59,894 nt of DNA from an uncultured Sphingosinicella sp. (lineage in GTDB: Bacteria > Pseudomonadota > Alphaproteobacteria > Sphingomonadales > Sphingomonadaceae). Below the pieces are notes generated by a model that was not told the DNA's origin, searched no databases, and saw only the letters and a list, made by a program, of their open reading frames with translations. Of this stretch, positions 34,884 through 42,001 are shown piece after piece (positions within the stretch are counted from its first letter, which is position 1; the number at the start of each line of letters is the position of its first letter). A program made the translations under genes and the position numbers. Where the stretch lies: the NCBI RefSeq assembly GCF_902806315.1, contig NZ_CADCWD010000058.1, positions 1 through 59,894 of the forward strand. Direction: 5' to 3'.

Positions 34884-35013
34884 CGCAATCCCCGATCGAC
34901 CTGACGGTCGGCTCGGCCACGCGCACACGCAGCCTTAGTTACGCAACAAGGGCTTCTTCGGCCCGGTTTAATCCGTCAGGAAGCTGCCCACCCCGTGACG
35001 TGAGCCCAGACTG

Positions 35014-35850
35014 TTAAAGTACCCTTGCCGGGGCAAGCCCTTCATAGAAATCGCGGGACAGACCGGCTTGGTCGCGCGCCGAGTTGTTGAAAGGCGGCTT
35101 CAAAGCCCCCATGCAGTGACGGCTAACGAGCGCCCGCCATTGGTTAACAGGTGAAAACCCACGCGATTCTGCGATTTTCGTAAACCATGTTGTTCCGGGC
35201 GCGACATGACGAATCTCGTCGCGATAGATGCGATCGAGAACGGCGGCGGAACGATGATCGCCCGCCGCTTCGAACCGGCCGACCGTCGCCGGGGTGACGT
35301 CGAGCCCCCTCGCCTCCAGCACCATCGGCACGACGGCAAGCCGGGCGAGCACGTCGCCCGCCGTATTTTCCGCAGCCTCCCACAGACCATCATGCGCGGG
35401 CATCGCCCCATATGACGAGCCGAGAGCGCGTAGCCGGCGGTCGAGCAGCGCGAAATGCATCGCCTCGTCGGCGCCAACGCCGAACCAGTCGGTGACGAAG
35501 GACGGCGAAAAGTCGGCGCCGAACCGCCCGGCTATGTCAAACGCCAGGTCGATTGCGCCGAACTCGATGTGAGCAAGGGCGTGGAGGAGCGCGATCCGGC
35601 CACGCTCGGAGCCGCCCTTCCCGCGCTTCGGCATCTTCCCCGGAGGCAGCAGCTCAGGGCGCGGCGGACGGGCCGGGCGCTCCGGCATGAGCACGTCGAA
35701 GCGATGCGCCAGCCGCCCGGACCGCCAGCCACGAGCCGCCGCACGGGCAGCCTTCACCTTGGCGTCAGGGTCGGCTGCCAGGAGCACGACGCGCGCGGCT
35801 TCGGCAACCGACGTCATCGAAAACGCACCGGAACCTGCTTCAGCCTGCAT
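35014..35850 (-). CDS. DUF455 ferritin-like protein
   Basis: This 278-residue helical protein belongs to the DUF455 family. Metal-binding motifs E-x6-H are visible in HIEFGAIDLAFDI, DEAMHFALLDRRL, and YRDEIRHVAPG, the carboxylate/His pattern of a ferritin-like di-iron centre. The family includes MiaE-like tRNA hydroxylases and remains otherwise uncharacterised. A start at MTSVAEAARVV (35817) is an alternative to the one given. It is divergent from the MpaB-type oxygenase gene. Confidence 0.85.
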   Translation of the reverse strand: MQAEAGSGAFSMTSVAEAARVVLLAADPDAKVKAARAAARGWRSGRLAHRFDVLMPERPARPPRPELLPPGKMPKRGKGGSERGRIALLHALAHIEFGAIDLAFDIAGRFGADFSPSFVTDWFGVGADEAMHFALLDRRLRALGSSYGAMPAHDGLWEAAENTAGDVLARLAVVPMVLEARGLDVTPATVGRFEAAGDHRSAAVLDRIYRDEIRHVAPGTTWFTKIAESRGFSPVNQWRALVSRHCMGALKPPFNNSARDQAGLSRDFYEGLAPARVL

Positions 35851-35918
35851 CCGCTCGCGCTAACGCCTTCACAATGCCTCCCGCAACTTGCTCCACACGG
35901 CTTGCGTTCGCATCGGAC

Positions 35919-36839
35919 ATGCCTCGCCCCCTGACCTTACCCTTGGGCCTGCAGAGCCTCGTCGAGAGGATTGCAACCACCGTCCTCCAGCCTTCCGGCT
36001 CTTCAGCCGTCGATTTCACGCGGCCCACTGGCGAACCTGCGCTGGCCGGCCCGGACTCGATATCCTGGCAGGTATTCCGCAATCCGGTGTCGCTCTTCAT
36101 CGGCGGAGTTGCTGCTGTGATCCTCGAGCTTGGCGAGCCGCGGGTTCGCAGCGGCGTGTGGGAGCATAGCAGCTTCCGTACCGACCCGGTCGACCGCCTC
36201 AAGCGCACCGGTCTCGCTGCCATGCTGACCGTATACGGCGCCCGCAGCGAGGCGGAGAAGATGATCGCCGGCGTCCGCCGCGCCCACGACCGGGTCAGCG
36301 GAGTGACGCCTACCGGCCAGGCTTACCGGGCCAATGATCCGGAGCTGCTGAGCTGGGTGCAGGCGACCGCGCAGTTCGGCTTCCTAGAGGCCTATACGCG
36401 CTACGTGCGGCCGCTTCCTCGGGCCGATCGCGACCGTTTCCATGCGGAAGGTCGTCCTGCGGCCCTGCTCTACGGCTCCGTCGACACGCCGGCCTCCGAA
36501 GCCGAGTTGCGCTCTCTCTTCGCCGCAGTCGCGCCGCGGCTCGAAGGTTCGCCGGTGATCATGGAGTTCCTGGAGTTGATGCGCACGGCGCCTTTAGTTC
36601 CGGCCGCGCTCCGTCCCGTTCAGCGCTTGCTGGTGAGGGGCGCCATCGCCCTCGTTCCCGATGGCCTGCGCCCGCAGCTCGATCTCGGCGCTCGGTGGAA
36701 CCTGCGGTTCGGCGAAGAGGCGCTGATCCGCAGCCTGGCGCGCCTCGCCGACAGAATTCGCCTGGATTCAAGCCCGGCCGCGCAGGCGTGCGTGCGGATG
36801 GCACTTGCCCCCGACTATCTGCACCGCGCCGGGCGCTAG
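35919..36839 (+). CDS. Oxygenase MpaB family protein (DUF2236)
   Basis: This protein of about 306 residues has the MpaB/DUF2236 core: LFIGGVAAVILELGEPRVRSGVW, HSSFRTDPVDRLKRTG, the histidine in RRAHDRVSG, and DPELLSWVQATAQFGFLEAYTRY. These proteins are related to latex-clearing (rubber) oxygenases and bind heme through a conserved His. The natural substrate is unknown. ATG 35919 is preferred; an upstream in-frame ATG is at 35874. The stop overlaps the stop of the convergent transglutaminase-like gene within CTAG. Confidence 0.85.
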   Translation: MPRPLTLPLGLQSLVERIATTVLQPSGSSAVDFTRPTGEPALAGPDSISWQVFRNPVSLFIGGVAAVILELGEPRVRSGVWEHSSFRTDPVDRLKRTGLAAMLTVYGARSEAEKMIAGVRRAHDRVSGVTPTGQAYRANDPELLSWVQATAQFGFLEAYTRYVRPLPRADRDRFHAEGRPAALLYGSVDTPASEAELRSLFAAVAPRLEGSPVIMEFLELMRTAPLVPAALRPVQRLLVRGAIALVPDGLRPQLDLGARWNLRFGEEALIRSLARLADRIRLDSSPAAQACVRMALAPDYLHRAGR

Positions 36840-37492
36840 AATTCGTGCCAGGCGCCGGGCTTGATCCGGTGCTCGCCCCAGCGGAAGCCGTCACCGACGC
36901 CAAACTGGCCTTCCGCGTGAATGCGCACCGCCAACAGGCTGCCATAGCCATGCGGCTGCTGGCGCGGGTTGATCCACCAGCCTGCGCTTGCGTCCCACAG
37001 CTTCACCTCGTCCTCGCCGGTGAGCAAGGCGACGCCTTCGTGGTAGATCACTCCGTCGTCGATCCAGTGGCACGAGACGTCGTCTTCCGACCACTTCTTC
37101 TGCCACTGCTCGGTCGCGTCCGGGCTATATTGCTGGACGAATTGCGCGGGATAGCTGGTCACCCCCCGCGCCCTGAAGGCCTCGTGCGCGATCGCCGCGT
37201 GAGCGCCGCAGTCGAGCGTGTCGCGCTCCACCGCATCACACCAGTGGATCGGCCAGGCGGTCGGGCCCCATTTATACTTCTGCCGCATCCAGCGGGGACC
37301 GCTCAGCAGGTCGCCGCCGTTCAGCTGGGCGAAGTCCATGGCCAGCAGCCATTCGCGCGCAATGTCGCAGCAGGCTTCGCCATGATGGGAGAGGGTGGAG
37401 AACGGAAAATGCTGCCATTTCGCGCTGCAAGAGCGCCGCTCGGCCTCACGCTCGATCAGATCCTGGCGCTTTTCAGCCCCGGCCAAATACAT
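36836..37492 (-). CDS. Transglutaminase-like/papain-fold protein of the ATP-grasp cluster
   Basis: This 218-residue protein has a plausible Cys-His-Asp triad: C95 in TLDCGAHAA, H151 in VIYHEGVAL and D167 in KLWDASAGWW. This order and spacing is that of transglutaminase-like and papain-fold enzymes, which cleave or form amide bonds. No signal peptide is present. It overlaps the end of the ATP-grasp/decarboxylase gene by 20 bases, so it is the second gene of that operon. The reaction is unknown: hydrolysis, amidation or peptide trimming are all possible. Confidence 0.65.
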   Translation of the reverse strand: MYLAGAEKRQDLIEREAERRSCSAKWQHFPFSTLSHHGEACCDIAREWLLAMDFAQLNGGDLLSGPRWMRQKYKWGPTAWPIHWCDAVERDTLDCGAHAAIAHEAFRARGVTSYPAQFVQQYSPDATEQWQKKWSEDDVSCHWIDDGVIYHEGVALLTGEDEVKLWDASAGWWINPRQQPHGYGSLLAVRIHAEGQFGVGDGFRWGEHRIKPGAWHEF

Positions 37493-39749
37493 AGGACATG
37501 CTCCTGTCGTAACCGCCGGCGTCGCAGAAGATCAGAAGGTCGCCGGCGCGAGTCCCTTCCGGGAGTTGGACATTGGCCGCGACGATGTCGTGCTCCATGC
37601 AGAGCCGGCCCATCAGGTGGGTCTTGCCGCGTTTGAGCGGCTGCCATTCACCGGTCTCGCCGCATTGGCGCAGCATGCGGTGCGGGTAGAAGAAATACAT
37701 GGGCAGCTCGGCGATCGATCCGTCCACGACGGCTTCGACATAATCGTCCTCATGCTCCTGGATTTCGAGCACCCGCATCGCCAGCGCCATGGAGGGCTGG
37801 GCCATCGCCTTGCCGGGCTCCGACGCGATCTGGCGCACGTTCGGAAGCACCGCGCGGGCCGTCTCGACCGCCTTTGCGAACTTGTCCTCGTCGCCGTCAT
37901 GCACGTCGTCGGGGAACCAGCCGCCGCCCATGTCGAGCATCTCGATGTCGCGCTCCGTGAGCTTCTCGATCGCACGGCACCATTTCAGGATCGATTCGAA
38001 CAGGTGCCACCATTGCGCCACGCCGACATTGGCGCTCGCCATGTGGAAGTGAACCCCAAACGCCGTGTCGGTCGGCAGCCTTTTCACCGCCTCGACGAGC
38101 TTGGCGAAGGTCGCCGGGCTGTCGAGCGGGATCCCGAAGCGCGAGCGGATGTTGGGCGTGCGAATACGGATGCCGACATGCTTGGACTTCATCTCGCCTG
38201 AGGCGAGCGCGGCCACGCAGCGGTCGAGATCGGCGACGCTGTCGCAGAACACGGCGTGCATCTGCTCGGTAGGCATCAACCCTTCGGGCCACCATTTGCC
38301 TGGGCCGTTGAGGATCACCTGATCCGGCCGGAAGCCGACTTCCAGCGCCTTTTGCGCCTCGGCAAGGCTGATGCATTCGGCCAGGAAGCCGTTGTCGAGC
38401 GCCAGCTTGATCAGCCGCGCGTCGGGGTTCGTCTTGATCGAATAGCCGGTGATCACCTGCACCTCGTTGGTGCTGAGGCGATGCGCCCGCTCCGACGCGC
38501 GCTTGAACAGGCTTGCCGCCGTCGATTCCATGAAGAGGAATTCCGGCGTCTGCACCTGCGCGAAGTCGTAGCTGCCGAGATCCTGCATCATCGTCTCGGG
38601 GATCTTCGCGACCTGCTCCGTTCCGTCGCCGTCGCCGATGACCTCCAGCATGTGCGGATTGGATTCCTGCAGCCGCTCGGCGAGCGCGGGAAGGCCCGAA
38701 GGATGCTTCATCGAATGGCCGACCGCGCCCGCGAAGGGCTCGGGCAGCGGCGGCAGCGGGAAGTCCTTGCGTACCGGGACCTCGAGCACCACTCGCGTGA
38801 ACTCCTCGCCATGGGCGATGCTCGGCTTGGGGATCGCACCCGTGGCTGCCTGCACCAGCAAGGCAGGTAGATTGTGCCCGGCCAAAGTGGCGCCGTGAAC
38901 CCAGGCCGGGAAGCGCGGGTTCATCTCCAGCAGCCAAAGCTCGCCCGCCGCGTCGCGCACCATCTCGAGCTCGCCGCCGCCGGTCCAGTTCAGCGCCTTC
39001 ACCATCCGGCGCAGCGGAACCAGGAACTCGTCCGGCACCTCGGTCACGTCGCCGGCCCAGGTCTTGCCTTCAGGCGTGATGTCGCGCTTGCGCATGCTGA
39101 CGGCGCCGAGCAGCTCGCCCTTATAGGCGCTCAGCATCACCGATTCCTCATAGCCGCTGACATGCGCCTGGAGGAACAGCCGCTGGGTCGCCCAGACCTT
39201 GGAGAGCGCGTTGCGGGCCGCTTCGAACACGTCCCAGCTCGGCGTCCGCGCGGCATCGTAATAGGGCCCCTTCAGCCACACGCGCCAATTATGCTGGCGG
39301 CAGAAGGCGTGCAGATCCCAGTCGCTGTGATCGGTCGAGATGAAGGTCGGGATCTTCACCGGCAGCTCCTTTGCGCCAAGCACTTCGGGCTTGGTGATCC
39401 GCTTCAGCGCCTGCATCGGCGGCGCGAGCAGGTTCGGGTGCCCTTCCGGGAAGATCGAGGCGAGCCACATCGCCTCCAGGTCGCTCCCCGAAATCCACAG
39501 CGCGCCGCCGCCGACGAGCTCGCGCACACGCTCCGCATAGATATCCAGGTCGAGCTCGTCCCACGGTCGTTGAAGCCAGACATCGTCCAGGCCTTCCCAG
39601 TGAATACCGGAGACCCGGTTCGAATATTCGACACCGACTATCTTGGAACTCGGAAATGCCGCGCGAAGAGACCTGACTATTCCTACGCCCGGTTGTGGGT
39701 TTCCTCCACAATAAAGGCCGCTGACATATATTCGGATCTGCGCAGGCAA
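37473..39749 (-). CDS. ATP-grasp ligase fused to a fold-III PLP amino acid decarboxylase
   Basis: This 758-residue protein joins two enzymes. Residues 1-330 read as a pre-ATP-grasp Rossmann part (YVSGLYCGGNPQPGVGIVRS) and an ATP-grasp domain with K160 (WLKGP), QAHVSGYEESVML, GGGELEMVRD and the metal motif LLEMNPRF. Residues 400-758 match the Orn/DAP/Arg decarboxylase family: PLP lysine K439 in YSIKTNPD, HFHMASAN, LDMGGGWFP, SEPGK (usually EPGR) and the C-terminal CDAGGYD. It should ligate a carboxylate to an amine and decarboxylate an amino acid. A product and a precise pathway are not known. It has no export signal. Confidence 0.85.
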   Translation of the reverse strand: MPAQIRIYVSGLYCGGNPQPGVGIVRSLRAAFPSSKIVGVEYSNRVSGIHWEGLDDVWLQRPWDELDLDIYAERVRELVGGGALWISGSDLEAMWLASIFPEGHPNLLAPPMQALKRITKPEVLGAKELPVKIPTFISTDHSDWDLHAFCRQHNWRVWLKGPYYDAARTPSWDVFEAARNALSKVWATQRLFLQAHVSGYEESVMLSAYKGELLGAVSMRKRDITPEGKTWAGDVTEVPDEFLVPLRRMVKALNWTGGGELEMVRDAAGELWLLEMNPRFPAWVHGATLAGHNLPALLVQAATGAIPKPSIAHGEEFTRVVLEVPVRKDFPLPPLPEPFAGAVGHSMKHPSGLPALAERLQESNPHMLEVIGDGDGTEQVAKIPETMMQDLGSYDFAQVQTPEFLFMESTAASLFKRASERAHRLSTNEVQVITGYSIKTNPDARLIKLALDNGFLAECISLAEAQKALEVGFRPDQVILNGPGKWWPEGLMPTEQMHAVFCDSVADLDRCVAALASGEMKSKHVGIRIRTPNIRSRFGIPLDSPATFAKLVEAVKRLPTDTAFGVHFHMASANVGVAQWWHLFESILKWCRAIEKLTERDIEMLDMGGGWFPDDVHDGDEDKFAKAVETARAVLPNVRQIASEPGKAMAQPSMALAMRVLEIQEHEDDYVEAVVDGSIAELPMYFFYPHRMLRQCGETGEWQPLKRGKTHLMGRLCMEHDIVAANVQLPEGTRAGDLLIFCDAGGYDRSMSYVFGRG

Positions 39750-39802
39750 TAGCTATCCTTTCGCCAAGGAGGGCGCTCTTTAGTCTGGTGCTTGTTCAAG
39801 CG

Positions 39803-39838
39803 AGTTGCTGAATACTAGGAAAAGAGCTACTAGCAACT
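39803..39838. promoter_or_regulatory. Inverted repeat in the divergent cluster promoter region
   Basis: AGTTGCT (39803-39809) and AGCAACT (39832-39838) are exact inverted repeats in the 227-base gap between the ATP-grasp/decarboxylase gene and the divergent oxygenase gene. A T-rich block (about 39870-39892) next to it stands out in this high-GC window. An operator controlling both genes is possible. Confidence 0.35.
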
Positions 39839-39976
39839 ATGCGGGGGACGCGGACTAACAAGGATCAAGATGATCGTTTTTATTTTTTATTCGGCTTACT
39901 TGAACGGCGCAGAAGCGCTCGGGTTCCGCGAAGCTTCCTTTGGCCGGCGCCTCACCTGTCCCACAGCGGCAACGGC

Positions 39977-40648
39977 ATGACTGCAAGCGCCGTCTACCCA
40001 GCTTATAAGGACCTCGATCCCTTCATCGATGTCGCTCGCCTAAAGGCCCTCGACACCTATGTCCGCGACCGGATCGAACGACGGCTCGCCGCGTCGCGTG
40101 ACCTCGCTTTTTACACGGGCCCGTTCCTGCTCAACGGCAACGCGCCCCATCTTCCCGGTTCCAAGCTCATCTATTTGTCGAATTCTGCGCGGGAGGAGAA
40201 TTACTACGACCTCGACCGCACCGACCTTTGGCATTCCACGCCCGATGCGGACGAATTCTCCGAATTGATGAGCTTCATCGAAACGTTGCCGTTCAAGGCC
40301 ACCGGCAGGATCATCATCATGTACGATCCGAGCGGCCGCGCGGTCTCCGCCCACCGCGACCATGACAGCCTAGACCTCTGCCACGAGTTCGTCTGGTTCC
40401 GCACGAACTTGGACAAGCCCTTCTACATGCTCGATCCGGAGACGGGCGAGCGGCTCTACGTCCGCTCGCACGCCGCCTGGTTCGACACGGTCAACCAATA
40501 TCATGGCGGCGATGCGACCGGCCGCCTCTCCTTCAGCATCCGCGTGGATGGCGTCTTCACCGATGCTTTCCGCGCGCAGATCCCCTTCCCTTCCGAGAAC
40601 CGCGCCTCGGCGCCCTCGCTGTGGGCGATGGAGTCGGTGCCGGCCTGA
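39977..40648 (+). CDS. 2OG-Fe(II) oxygenase, aspartyl/asparaginyl beta-hydroxylase-like
   Basis: This 223-residue protein has the metal triad of a double-stranded beta-helix oxygenase: H126-x-D128 in AHRDHDSLD and the distal H176 in NQYHGGD, with R183 in TGRLSFS for 2-oxoglutarate binding. Strands LYVRSHAAWFD and SIRVDGVF surround them. This suits the aspartyl/asparaginyl beta-hydroxylase superfamily. The substrate is unknown. It is divergent from the ATP-grasp/decarboxylase gene. An in-frame ATG at 39839 would add 46 residues without family resemblance, and neither start has a good ribosome-binding site. Confidence 0.8.
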   Translation: MTASAVYPAYKDLDPFIDVARLKALDTYVRDRIERRLAASRDLAFYTGPFLLNGNAPHLPGSKLIYLSNSAREENYYDLDRTDLWHSTPDADEFSELMSFIETLPFKATGRIIIMYDPSGRAVSAHRDHDSLDLCHEFVWFRTNLDKPFYMLDPETGERLYVRSHAAWFDTVNQYHGGDATGRLSFSIRVDGVFTDAFRAQIPFPSENRASAPSLWAMESVPA

Positions 40649-40655
40649 AACAAGA

Positions 40656-40697
40656 GCGGCGGGCCGTCCCTGGACGACCCGCCGCGAATTTCTTGTT
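40656..40697 (+). terminator. Terminator after the 2OG oxygenase
   Basis: A GC-rich stem (40656-40669 with 40672-40685, one mismatch) lies between the convergent oxygenase and SWIB genes and is flanked by complementary CAAGA/TCTTG. The T-run after it is imperfect (TTTCTTGTT). Confidence 0.5.
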
Positions 40698-40736
40698 CTG
40701 GACGCGGTGGACGTGAATGCGTCCCCTGCGCAGCCG

Positions 40737-41024
40737 TTACGGCTGGCTCAGATGGCCCGACAGATGCTTGTTCATCTCGAACATAGACACCTTGTCCTTG
40801 CCGCCGAACACTTTCTTGAGCTTGTCGTCGGCCAGGATCTCGCGCTTGTTCTCGGGATTCTGAAGATTGTTCTTCTTGATATATTCCCACATCTTGCTGA
40901 CGACATCGCTGCGCGCGATGTTGCCGGTGCCGGTGATCGCCGCCAGATCTTCCGACGGCTTCAGCGGACGCTGCAAGCCATCCGAACGCGAACCACCCGT
41001 TTTACCCGTAGTGCCCTTTGCCAT
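40737..41024 (-). CDS. SWIB/MDM2 domain protein
   Basis: This 95-residue protein starts at ATG 41024 with GAGGAGG just upstream. A basic Gly/Ser/Thr-rich N-terminus leads into a SWIB domain: LQRPLKPSEDLAAITG, IARSDVVSKMWEYIKKNNLQNPENKREILADDKLKKVF, then SMFEMNKHLSGHL. SWIB folds are known from eukaryotic chromatin remodelling factors and occur as stand-alone proteins in several bacteria, where they may bind DNA or topoisomerase. It is likely cytosolic and nucleoid-associated. Confidence 0.9.
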   Translation of the reverse strand: MAKGTTGKTGGSRSDGLQRPLKPSEDLAAITGTGNIARSDVVSKMWEYIKKNNLQNPENKREILADDKLKKVFGGKDKVSMFEMNKHLSGHLSQP

Positions 41025-41093
41025 TAGAGGCTCCTCCTCGTGAACTGCACCTTCTAGAGCGCAAACGCGCACCGAGTGCAATGGTCTCGGACG

Positions 41094-41927
41094 CTAAGGA
41101 ATTGCGGGGCGCGCTCGACCGAACGGCACGATCTTGTTGTCGGCGTCGTGCCCGATGTCGGCCGAGCCCAAAAAAGGGATGCCCGCGCGCTCGCACCAGA
41201 AGCGGAGGATCTCCTCCTCCGTGTCGCCGAAATCGGGATCGTTCTCGGGCACGAGGCTGCAGCGGCCGAGGCGAATTCCTGCGACTTTGCGGACGTTGGG
41301 GCTGCTCGTGATGTGGAACAGCGCGCGGTCGGTGCGATATGTGTGCTCGGACACGTCCTCCAGTATCAGCACGTGGCCCGAAAGATCCGGCTCGAGAGGC
41401 GTTCCCAGCATGTGGCTGAGAACGGTGATGTTGAACGCGGCGACGGGCGCGCTCCCGTCAATCGAGGGCTCCAGCCCGTCAACGGCGTCTGCCACAAACC
41501 AGTCCAGCACCCGCAGCACGGCAGCCTCGCCGCCATCGCGCTTGATGTCCGCCGGCATGGGCGCATGGACGAGGTGCGGGAAACCGGCGCGGTAGAGGGC
41601 GCCCAGGATGAACCCGGCGTCGCTATATCCGATATAGGTCTTGTCACGCGCGGCCGGCGAGAGGTGCGGGAGGACTGCTTCGGCAATCCGGTTGGATCCG
41701 TAGCCGCCTCTTCCATGCCAAAGCGCGTCGAAAGACGGATCGTTGGCGACCTCTAGGAAAGCCTGGGCGCGGTCGGCGTCCGTGCCGGCAAAATGCTTGT
41801 GCACCACGAAGCATTGCGGGTGGAACACGATCTCCACCCCGGGATGATGCTCGGCTGCAAGCGCCAGCACCCGGTCGGCGACCGATGTCTCGATGGGCGT
41901 GCTCGGCGCCACCACACCAATCCGCAT
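41094..41927 (-). CDS. ldcA: LD-carboxypeptidase (S66 family)
   Basis: This 277-residue protein has the S66 pattern: catalytic S102 in IGYSDAG, the Glu in ILEDVSEHTYR and the His late in GHDADNK. It cleaves the terminal D-Ala from murein tetrapeptides to give tripeptides. No signal peptide is visible, so it should act in the cytosol on recycled muropeptides. It is divergent from mpl, which uses tripeptide, with 74 bases between the two starts; the two genes are functionally consecutive. Confidence 0.92.
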   Translation of the reverse strand: MRIGVVAPSTPIETSVADRVLALAAEHHPGVEIVFHPQCFVVHKHFAGTDADRAQAFLEVANDPSFDALWHGRGGYGSNRIAEAVLPHLSPAARDKTYIGYSDAGFILGALYRAGFPHLVHAPMPADIKRDGGEAAVLRVLDWFVADAVDGLEPSIDGSAPVAAFNITVLSHMLGTPLEPDLSGHVLILEDVSEHTYRTDRALFHITSSPNVRKVAGIRLGRCSLVPENDPDFGDTEEEILRFWCERAGIPFLGSADIGHDADNKIVPFGRARPAIP

Positions 41928-42001
41928 TTCCCTGCCCCTTTAAACGCTTTTGCACATCGCCGCCGCTTCCAAAGGGCGGAGCGCTCCAATAGGGCGAGCG
42001 G

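Follow-up and report, generated by a model that had tools for sequence, protein, structure and literature searches.

A conserved bacterial gene cassette built around a fused ATP-grasp ligase and PLP decarboxylase

A gene cassette of an uncultured Sphingosinicella sp. encodes a 758-residue protein in which an ATP-grasp ligase is fused to a pyridoxal 5'-phosphate (PLP)-dependent decarboxylase, a Cys-His-Asp protein whose gene overlaps that of the fusion, and a divergently transcribed putative Fe(II)/2-oxoglutarate (2OG) oxygenase. It lies in a contig of 59,894 nucleotides, which we call the window (NZ_CADCWD010000058.1 of assembly GCF_902806315.1, a 2.69 Mb draft genome). The cassette is a real and conserved unit, it contains a domain fusion for which we found no published role, and it possibly serves to make a new metabolite. 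The features of the cassette are the following.

37473..39749, minus strand: fusion protein of an ATP-grasp ligase and an alanine-racemase-fold PLP decarboxylase (open reading frame of 758 residues, Pfam domains, invariant catalytic residues, AlphaFold2 model)
38715..39749, minus strand: ATP-grasp domain, approximately residues 1-345 (K120, K160, E201, E260, E262, E275, N277, R279; profile match 2pn1)
37473..38609, minus strand: PLP decarboxylase domain, approximately residues 385-758 (K439 for PLP, H567, E644, D676, C717-M718, Y747; relative 7kh2)
36836..37492, minus strand: transglutaminase-like Cys-His-Asp protein, 218 residues (C95, H151, D167; alignment, predicted model, weak fold matches)
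39977..40648, plus strand: putative Fe(II)/2OG oxygenase, 223 residues (H126-x-D128, H176, R189; motif conservation)
39750..39976, no strand: intergenic region between the divergent fusion and oxygenase-like genes (sequence)

A scan of one genome each for 84,980 species matched 147 stretches, 140 of which encode relatives; the best 80 were kept and gave 77 loci in two groups. Ligase and decarboxylase are fused in 30 near loci (L003-L032) and are two consecutive genes, with 24-34% identity, in the other 47 (L033-L079), which we call the split form. Fused relatives, including one on a Streptomyces plasmid, share 35-80% identity and occur in Sphingomonas and its kin, Caulobacteraceae, Chthoniobacterales, Pyrinomonadaceae and other Acidobacteria, Pseudomonas, Collimonas, Gemmatimonadota, and Bdellovibrionota. 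Six phyla are represented in all (Pseudomonadota, Verrucomicrobiota, Acidobacteriota, Gemmatimonadota, Bdellovibrionota, and, through its plasmid, that of Streptomyces zaomyceticus), and the retention of catalytic sites across this range of identity and hosts excludes chance. The nearest relatives of the window's cassette are mostly from sphingomonads.

Both halves of the fusion have their catalytic residues intact. The open reading frame and its Pfam domains bore out the ligase-decarboxylase fusion that an initial annotation had read from the sequence, and the residues named there for the three proteins (K160 and K439; C95, H151, and D167; H126, D128, and H176) proved to be conserved across alignment rows. 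Residues 189-313 match PF15632 (ATPgrasp_Ter) at 34.5 bits against a cut-off of 29.1, and the family profile matches 2pn1, deposited as a carbamoylphosphate synthase large subunit, at an E value of 9e-13. K160, E260, E262, N277, and R279 are kept in 23/23 rows, window included, and E275 is replaced by D in two of them. With the family cut-off passed and the ATP/Mg-site residues present, the N-terminal half is assigned by its sequence to the ATP-grasp superfamily.

The C-terminal half is a fold-III PLP decarboxylase, as judged from both Pfam domains (PF02784 and PF00278, over cut-off at residues 423-745), the PLP lysine, and the fold. K439, H567, H569, E644, C717, and D721 are kept in 22/22 rows, again with the window included. 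An AlphaFold2 model of the whole fusion reached a mean predicted local distance difference test (pLDDT) score of 81.2, and the best 50 of its 1707 fold matches were all fold-III decarboxylases (E <=1.1e-15). Structure prediction, proposed in the initial annotation as a check of both active sites, recovered the decarboxylase fold, and no ATP-grasp entry appeared among those best 50 of 1707 matches to the whole chain. SEPGK, noted in place of the usual EPGR, is also common in the fused form: of 24 fused rows, at least 90% have its lysine, K647, and arginine takes that position in two fused rows and in all 13 split rows of alignment A7.

The Cys-His-Asp gene is the constant companion of the fusion. 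It overlaps the fusion gene, which itself has a TTG start with AAAGGA immediately upstream, by 20 nt at the latter's 3' end, and the partner adjoins the fusion in 26/26 near loci that reach the fusion 3' end; the contigs of L028, L029, L031, and L032 end inside the fusion gene and fall outside the 26. The same pair is found on the Streptomyces plasmid (L080) and in one further locus (L103). Among 72,556 plasmids, the Cys-His-Asp gene occurs in a single record, which is also the sole record with a full-length fusion relative, and phage sequences gave two partial hits and no full-length fusion relative. On these counts we rejected the idea that the fusion is a phage or plasmid gene; a role in anti-phage defense was likewise set aside, as none of the three proteins matched a PADLOC model at an E value of 0.01.

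C95 and H151 of the partner are present in 26/26 rows and D167 in 25/26, the exception (L016) being misaligned at its C-terminal end. C41, C42, and C85 are also invariant and H36-H37 nearly so, which makes a metal site possible. In the predicted model (pLDDT, 89.5; predicted template modeling score, 0.84), C95 opens helix 95-108, H151 lies on strand 148-157, and D167 lies on the neighboring strand 162-167, placing the triad in the helix-strand-strand order of the transglutaminase-like superfamily. Pfam and NCBIfam returned nothing over cut-off for this protein, Pfam matches across the 26 members were at chance level, and a profile search of the PDB gave no relevant match. Of the 50 fold matches listed, transglutaminases and arylamine N-acetyltransferases account for 11 chains each, and seven are unnamed axonemal chains; transglutaminase 2, LapG, PNGase, pseudomurein endoisopeptidases (Pei), and TglA are among the names. 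The listed matches belong largely to one superfamily (transglutaminases, N-acetyltransferases, PNGase, LapG, Pei, CtaG, and GdmF), which the model of the Cys-His-Asp protein weakly resembles. A GNAT acetyltransferase was considered on the strength of a single Pfam hit in 1/26 members (E 0.02, below cut-off) and dropped once the model was available.

The oxygenase-like gene is a more restricted companion. It belongs to a clade of 20 rows from Alphaproteobacteria, Verrucomicrobiota, and Acidobacteriota (support 100/99), where it is found in 19 and missing in L022. In 17 of these 19 it is adjacent to the cassette (in L013 as a fragment where the contig stops); in L003 and L012 it lies elsewhere in the assembly, the L012 contig beginning just before the fusion. 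In alphaproteobacteria the gene is divergent; L009 has it downstream, and four Acidobacteria have it on the same strand, upstream; its position varies yet stays close, and linkage has therefore survived rearrangement. Pseudomonas, Collimonas, and Pseudobacteriovorax carry, in place of the oxygenase-like gene, a urea-transporter-family gene (PF03253) after the Cys-His-Asp gene (4 loci). PF03253 was found in those 4 of the 24 cassette genomes searched, none of which yielded an oxygenase-like gene, and the Pseudomonas genome holds a second PF03253 gene elsewhere. Neither gene was found in the three Gemmatimonadota genomes or in that of L022, an absence that is provisional, as many of these are metagenome-assembled genomes (MAGs). 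Pseudomonas and Collimonas are sister to the 20-row clade at 90/93 (a branch not starred), and the Streptomyces and Pseudobacteriovorax rows sit on very long branches, so that their placement is uncertain. Of the three-gene neighborhood expected at the outset, then, the fusion and its Cys-His-Asp partner are constant, and the oxygenase-like gene is a feature of one clade.

Within that clade, H126, D128, H176, and R189 of the oxygenase-like protein are invariant in 16/16 rows (15 homologs and the window), in an alignment where many other columns are equally invariant. The HxD...H...R spacing presumably fits the 2OG class, and by this motif the protein is probably an Fe(II)/2OG oxygenase, as first proposed. 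The motif held up and support from profiles did not follow: Pfam matches across the 16 members were at chance level (best E 0.014), a PDB profile search gave none that was relevant, and hhalign comparison with the 2OG families PF05118 and PF13640 found no match with a profile of low diversity (Neff 2.0), so membership in either family was rejected. Its reading frame opens at 39839, homologs align only from about 39977, and the residue numbering used here and in the initial annotation fits a start at 39977. One Pyrinomonadaceae genome (L087/L089; G377:C270:2-1397) has a tandem pair of oxygenase-like genes at a contig end.

Association among the three genes also emerges from related genomes in which the cassette is rare. 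The fusion occurs in 1/149 genomes of the family at an E value of 1e-20, the window's own. Singly occurring homologs had been named at the outset as evidence against a cassette; when they were sought across 296 genomes of the order, the Cys-His-Asp and oxygenase-like families were each present in two, identical for both families, and flanked the fusion there. The window's genome is one of these two by choice, and the second would coincide by chance 1 time in 295. In the phylum sample, which overlaps that of the order and in which, as there, a limited number of candidates was scored per genome, both families were present in the window's own genome and in none of the other 397/398. Ten other cassette loci (nine alphaproteobacterial, plus L011, which groups with Caulobacteraceae) share the cassette genes with the window and 0/15 of its other genes over 13-18 kb per locus, and these neighbors are therefore not part of the cassette. 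In two genomes of the same genus without it, the gene that we label Mur-ligase-like, an LD-carboxypeptidase gene, and a SWIB gene are still together. The cassette is a conserved and apparently mobile unit, with no mobility gene identified.

Clues to the substrate come from relatives of the decarboxylase half. By window sequence the nearest solved relative is the N-citrylornithine decarboxylase 7kh2 (59.6 bits; next, 51.4). The family profile scores this enzyme at 302 bits (E 6e-89), diaminopimelate decarboxylase 1twi at 230, BtrK at 193, D-ornithine/D-lysine decarboxylase at 181, lysine/ornithine decarboxylase at 142, 6knk (named SbnH in the available text of PMC7857480) at 124, and ornithine decarboxylase at 113, a placement by profile scores rather than by phylogeny. 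According to the same text, FigC, SbnH, AcsE, MccE, and BtrK form one clade with diaminopimelate and D-ornithine decarboxylases, whose members are unlikely to act in polyamine metabolism, and these five enzymes decarboxylate amino acids conjugated at the side chain (PMC7857480). In FigC, the catalytic cysteine is followed by methionine instead of the aspartate that is said to bind the amine on the side chain of basic substrates (PMC7857480). The fusion shares with FigC/FslC, the closest solved relative, the PLP lysine, the Cys-Met pair (M718 follows C717 in 22/22 rows), and a tyrosine on the specificity helix, where the window has M684, F687, and Y688, the last in 21/22 rows.

Three known identities did not fit the decarboxylase. 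A polyamine (ornithine/lysine/arginine) decarboxylase would have an Asp on the specificity helix and beside the catalytic Cys, and both are missing. LysA, though the top-scoring NCBIfam model, reached 97.1 of the 297.9 bits required by TIGR01048, and Met rather than an acid follows the Cys in 22/22 rows. The N-citrylornithine decarboxylase itself (FigC/FslC, NF041039) reached 73 of 500 bits and has its proposed citrate contacts replaced here. FigC also differs in being unfused and in partnering a nonribosomal-peptide-synthetase-independent siderophore (NIS) synthetase.

A small-molecule pathway, as originally suggested, is held the likeliest role, and our best reading, offered tentatively, is that the cassette makes a small amide-type metabolite by first ligating, which yields an amino acid conjugated at its side chain, and then decarboxylating that conjugate. 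Since ligase and decarboxylase are fused here and are adjacent separate genes in the distant form, they probably act in successive steps, and the conjugate is placed first because the nearest solved relative acts on a conjugate and Cys-Met replaces the amine-binding Asp. The ATP-grasp half would activate a carboxylate as an acyl-phosphate and form an amide, yielding an amino acid with a bulky side-chain group; the PLP half would then strip the alpha-carboxylate of this conjugate, leaving an acylated amine, for example of the beta-alanyl, gamma-aminobutyrate, or N-acyl-diamine type. With less assurance, the transglutaminase-like enzyme might transfer or release the amide, and most speculatively, in one clade only, the HxD...H protein could hydroxylate the product. 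The amidated, hydroxylated product predicted at the outset is an inference that is not supported as stated.

Several observations weigh against this reading. The proposed citrate contacts of FigC, R387 and N389, correspond to M751 and Y753 in 9/9 fused rows of alignment A7, as read by eye, and to Gln and Met/Leu in split rows; citrate is therefore not the conjugated group, which may not even be an acyl. Acids do occur in the catalytic loop: E719, two residues past the Cys, is acidic in 9/9 fused rows, 3/9 of which have D at position 720. For the fusion, lysA outscores FslC in NCBIfam, and the two split examples examined divide, one favoring FslC and the other lysA, all below cut-off. FigC is absent among the best 50 of 1707 fold matches, which are generic, and the FigC-like placement hence rests on sequence. 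For the Cys-His-Asp protein, the best fold match is a putative cysteine protease (3isr_A; E 0.0095, probability 0.87), none reaches an E value of 0.001, and the amide-forming GdmF (an amide synthase) and CtaG are listed only at an E value of 0.5 or more. Taking these residues together with the shared ones, we infer that the decarboxylase would act on a conjugate other than citrate.

In the making of the butirosin side chain, the ATP-grasp enzyme BtrJ and the decarboxylase BtrK are separate proteins that use the carrier protein BtrI, and later steps involve an oxygenase as well as an enzyme for acyl transfer. The logic of the cassette resembles that of BtrJ and BtrK, except that here a single chain holds both activities; BtrJ is likened to the ATP-grasp half by kind of enzyme, not by sequence. 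The decarboxylase BtrK acts on a side-chain-linked amino acid and belongs to the same clade as FigC (PMC7857480). No carrier protein appeared among the Pfam-scanned neighbors of the cassette, a scan that included no search aimed at small carrier proteins.

The order of the two steps could also be reversed: the decarboxylase would make an amine from a free amino acid, the ATP-grasp half would couple an acid to it, as in E-64, and the transglutaminase-like protein would add or exchange an amide. Such a scheme finds precedent in the E-64 clusters cp1A-D, whose four genes encode one enzyme each of the Fe(II)/2OG oxygenase, ATP-grasp, PLP decarboxylase, and amide synthetase kinds and whose product is built from an acid, an amino acid, and an amine (PMC12568646), and in closthioamide, where CtaF is proposed to feed beta-alanine or diaminopropane to CtaD and CtaJ (PMC6772006). 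The missing aspartates that hold ornithine or arginine, and a nearest solved relative by sequence that uses a conjugate, make this sequence unlikely in the cassette.

Both pathways, as described in those sources, show that the combination of activities is not unique, and the earlier statement that no named pathway has it was too strong. The E-64 enzymes match the cassette in four similar activities, compared by description and not by sequence, and differ in that Cp1B is without a detectable Pfam domain and resembles homoglutathione synthetase and that the fourth enzyme is of ANL type and not transglutaminase-like (PMC12568646, same portion). Closthioamide uses the same kinds of activity in proposed roles (CtaD, ATP-grasp; CtaF, decarboxylase; CtaJ, transglutaminase; CtaG, peptidyl transferase), and CtaG turns up, with very weak scores, when the Cys-His-Asp protein is compared by fold, but that pathway is carrier-protein bound and thioamide forming, with no fusion described in the portion available, and was likewise compared by description rather than sequence (PMC6772006).

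The split form places the same chemistry in a different operon. Its ligase and decarboxylase are homologous to those of the fusion and have the key catalytic residues in common with it, but they are two genes in the company of PqqD and urea transporter-M23 proteins, as opposed to one fused gene with a Cys-His-Asp partner. The order is a PqqD-family gene, the ATP-grasp gene, the FslC-like decarboxylase gene, and a gene for a urea transporter with an M23 peptidase domain (for example, L037:7751-12647). Judged from sequence clusters, a urea-transporter-like gene follows the pair in 41/41 loci with more than 700 nt downstream, and its two domains were checked in L044, L037, and L075 (NCBIfam scores below cut-off). 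Hosts among the kept loci are mostly Bacteroidota, with Spirochaetes, Riflebacteria, Cloacimonadota, Ignavibacteria, Pseudomonas, and Acidocella also present. A search of 17 split-form genomes (17/47 loci), which had no positive control of its own, turned up no Cys-His-Asp homolog.

A PqqD-like gene precedes the split pair in 42/43 loci with more than 300 nt upstream, again by sequence clusters, and its family was verified in three examples (L055, L037, and L075; NCBIfam scores below cut-off). This gene, and a radical-SAM-like open reading frame at a single fused locus (L014:6827-7831; CNQACKHC, read by eye), where it comes immediately after the Cys-His-Asp gene on the opposite strand, would suit a ribosomal peptide or protein as the substrate, with the transglutaminase-like protein as a peptidase or cross-linker. 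Among gene clusters present in at least four loci, however, no PqqD-like gene recurs beside the fused form, and the radical-SAM-like gene is not recurrent either; we regard a peptide substrate as improbable. The urea-transporter-family genes at 4 fused loci and at all split loci with room for one would fit a catabolic or scavenging unit, in which an amide imported through a urea-transporter-like channel is degraded by a transglutaminase-like amidase, the decarboxylase, and the oxygenase, but the ATP-consuming ligase at the core favors synthesis, the transporter and oxygenase-like gene were never found together in the genomes searched, and such a role is very unlikely.

Returning to synthesis by ligation and then decarboxylation, the wider proposal, possible but more doubtful than the reaction order itself, is that a carrier-free, single-chain enzyme that conjugates and then decarboxylates defines an unrecognized class of small-metabolite pathways, spread over six phyla at least partly by horizontal transfer. 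One clade would hand the product to an oxygenase, others would hand it to a urea-transporter-like channel, and a conserved, uncharacterized operon, mostly of Bacteroidota, would be the split form. No description of the fusion or of the split operon was found in the titles and abstract openings of the papers listed, a coverage that leaves out most subscription journals, and within it no paper joined ATP-grasp enzymes with a urea transporter or a urea transporter with PqqD. If the proposal is true, one purified protein that couples ATP-dependent amide formation to decarboxylation would be a useful biocatalyst, and an unexplored family of bacterial metabolites would open up. The fused family would also be tied to an operon with a urea-transporter-family membrane protein, and the substrate of either would inform the other.

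Some minor features of these loci deserve mention. A 65.7 kb viral contig from IMG/VR carries PqqD-like, ATP-grasp, and decarboxylase genes with overlaps of 1-4 nt (L104:3444-5922), and the following 3.7 kb holds no open reading frame of urea-transporter length. The decarboxylase half matches the window's own genome a second time, weakly, on contig C55 (30% identity, residues 398-611). An Rfam scan of positions 35000-42000 found no RNA family match. An MPAB/rubber-oxygenase-like gene (PF09995, 35874-36839) meets the end of the window's cassette tail to tail with a 4-nt overlap, and comparison with ten other cassette loci showed no counterpart. A Sphingomicrobium MAG has an in-frame stop near the fusion N terminus (L005, near 8070), reflecting decay or an assembly error. 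Directly after the Cys-His-Asp gene, a Pyrinomonadaceae locus carries a SET-domain gene (L012:3042-3476), and on the Streptomyces zaomyceticus plasmid a fatty acid desaturase gene directly follows the two-gene core (L080:11914-13431).

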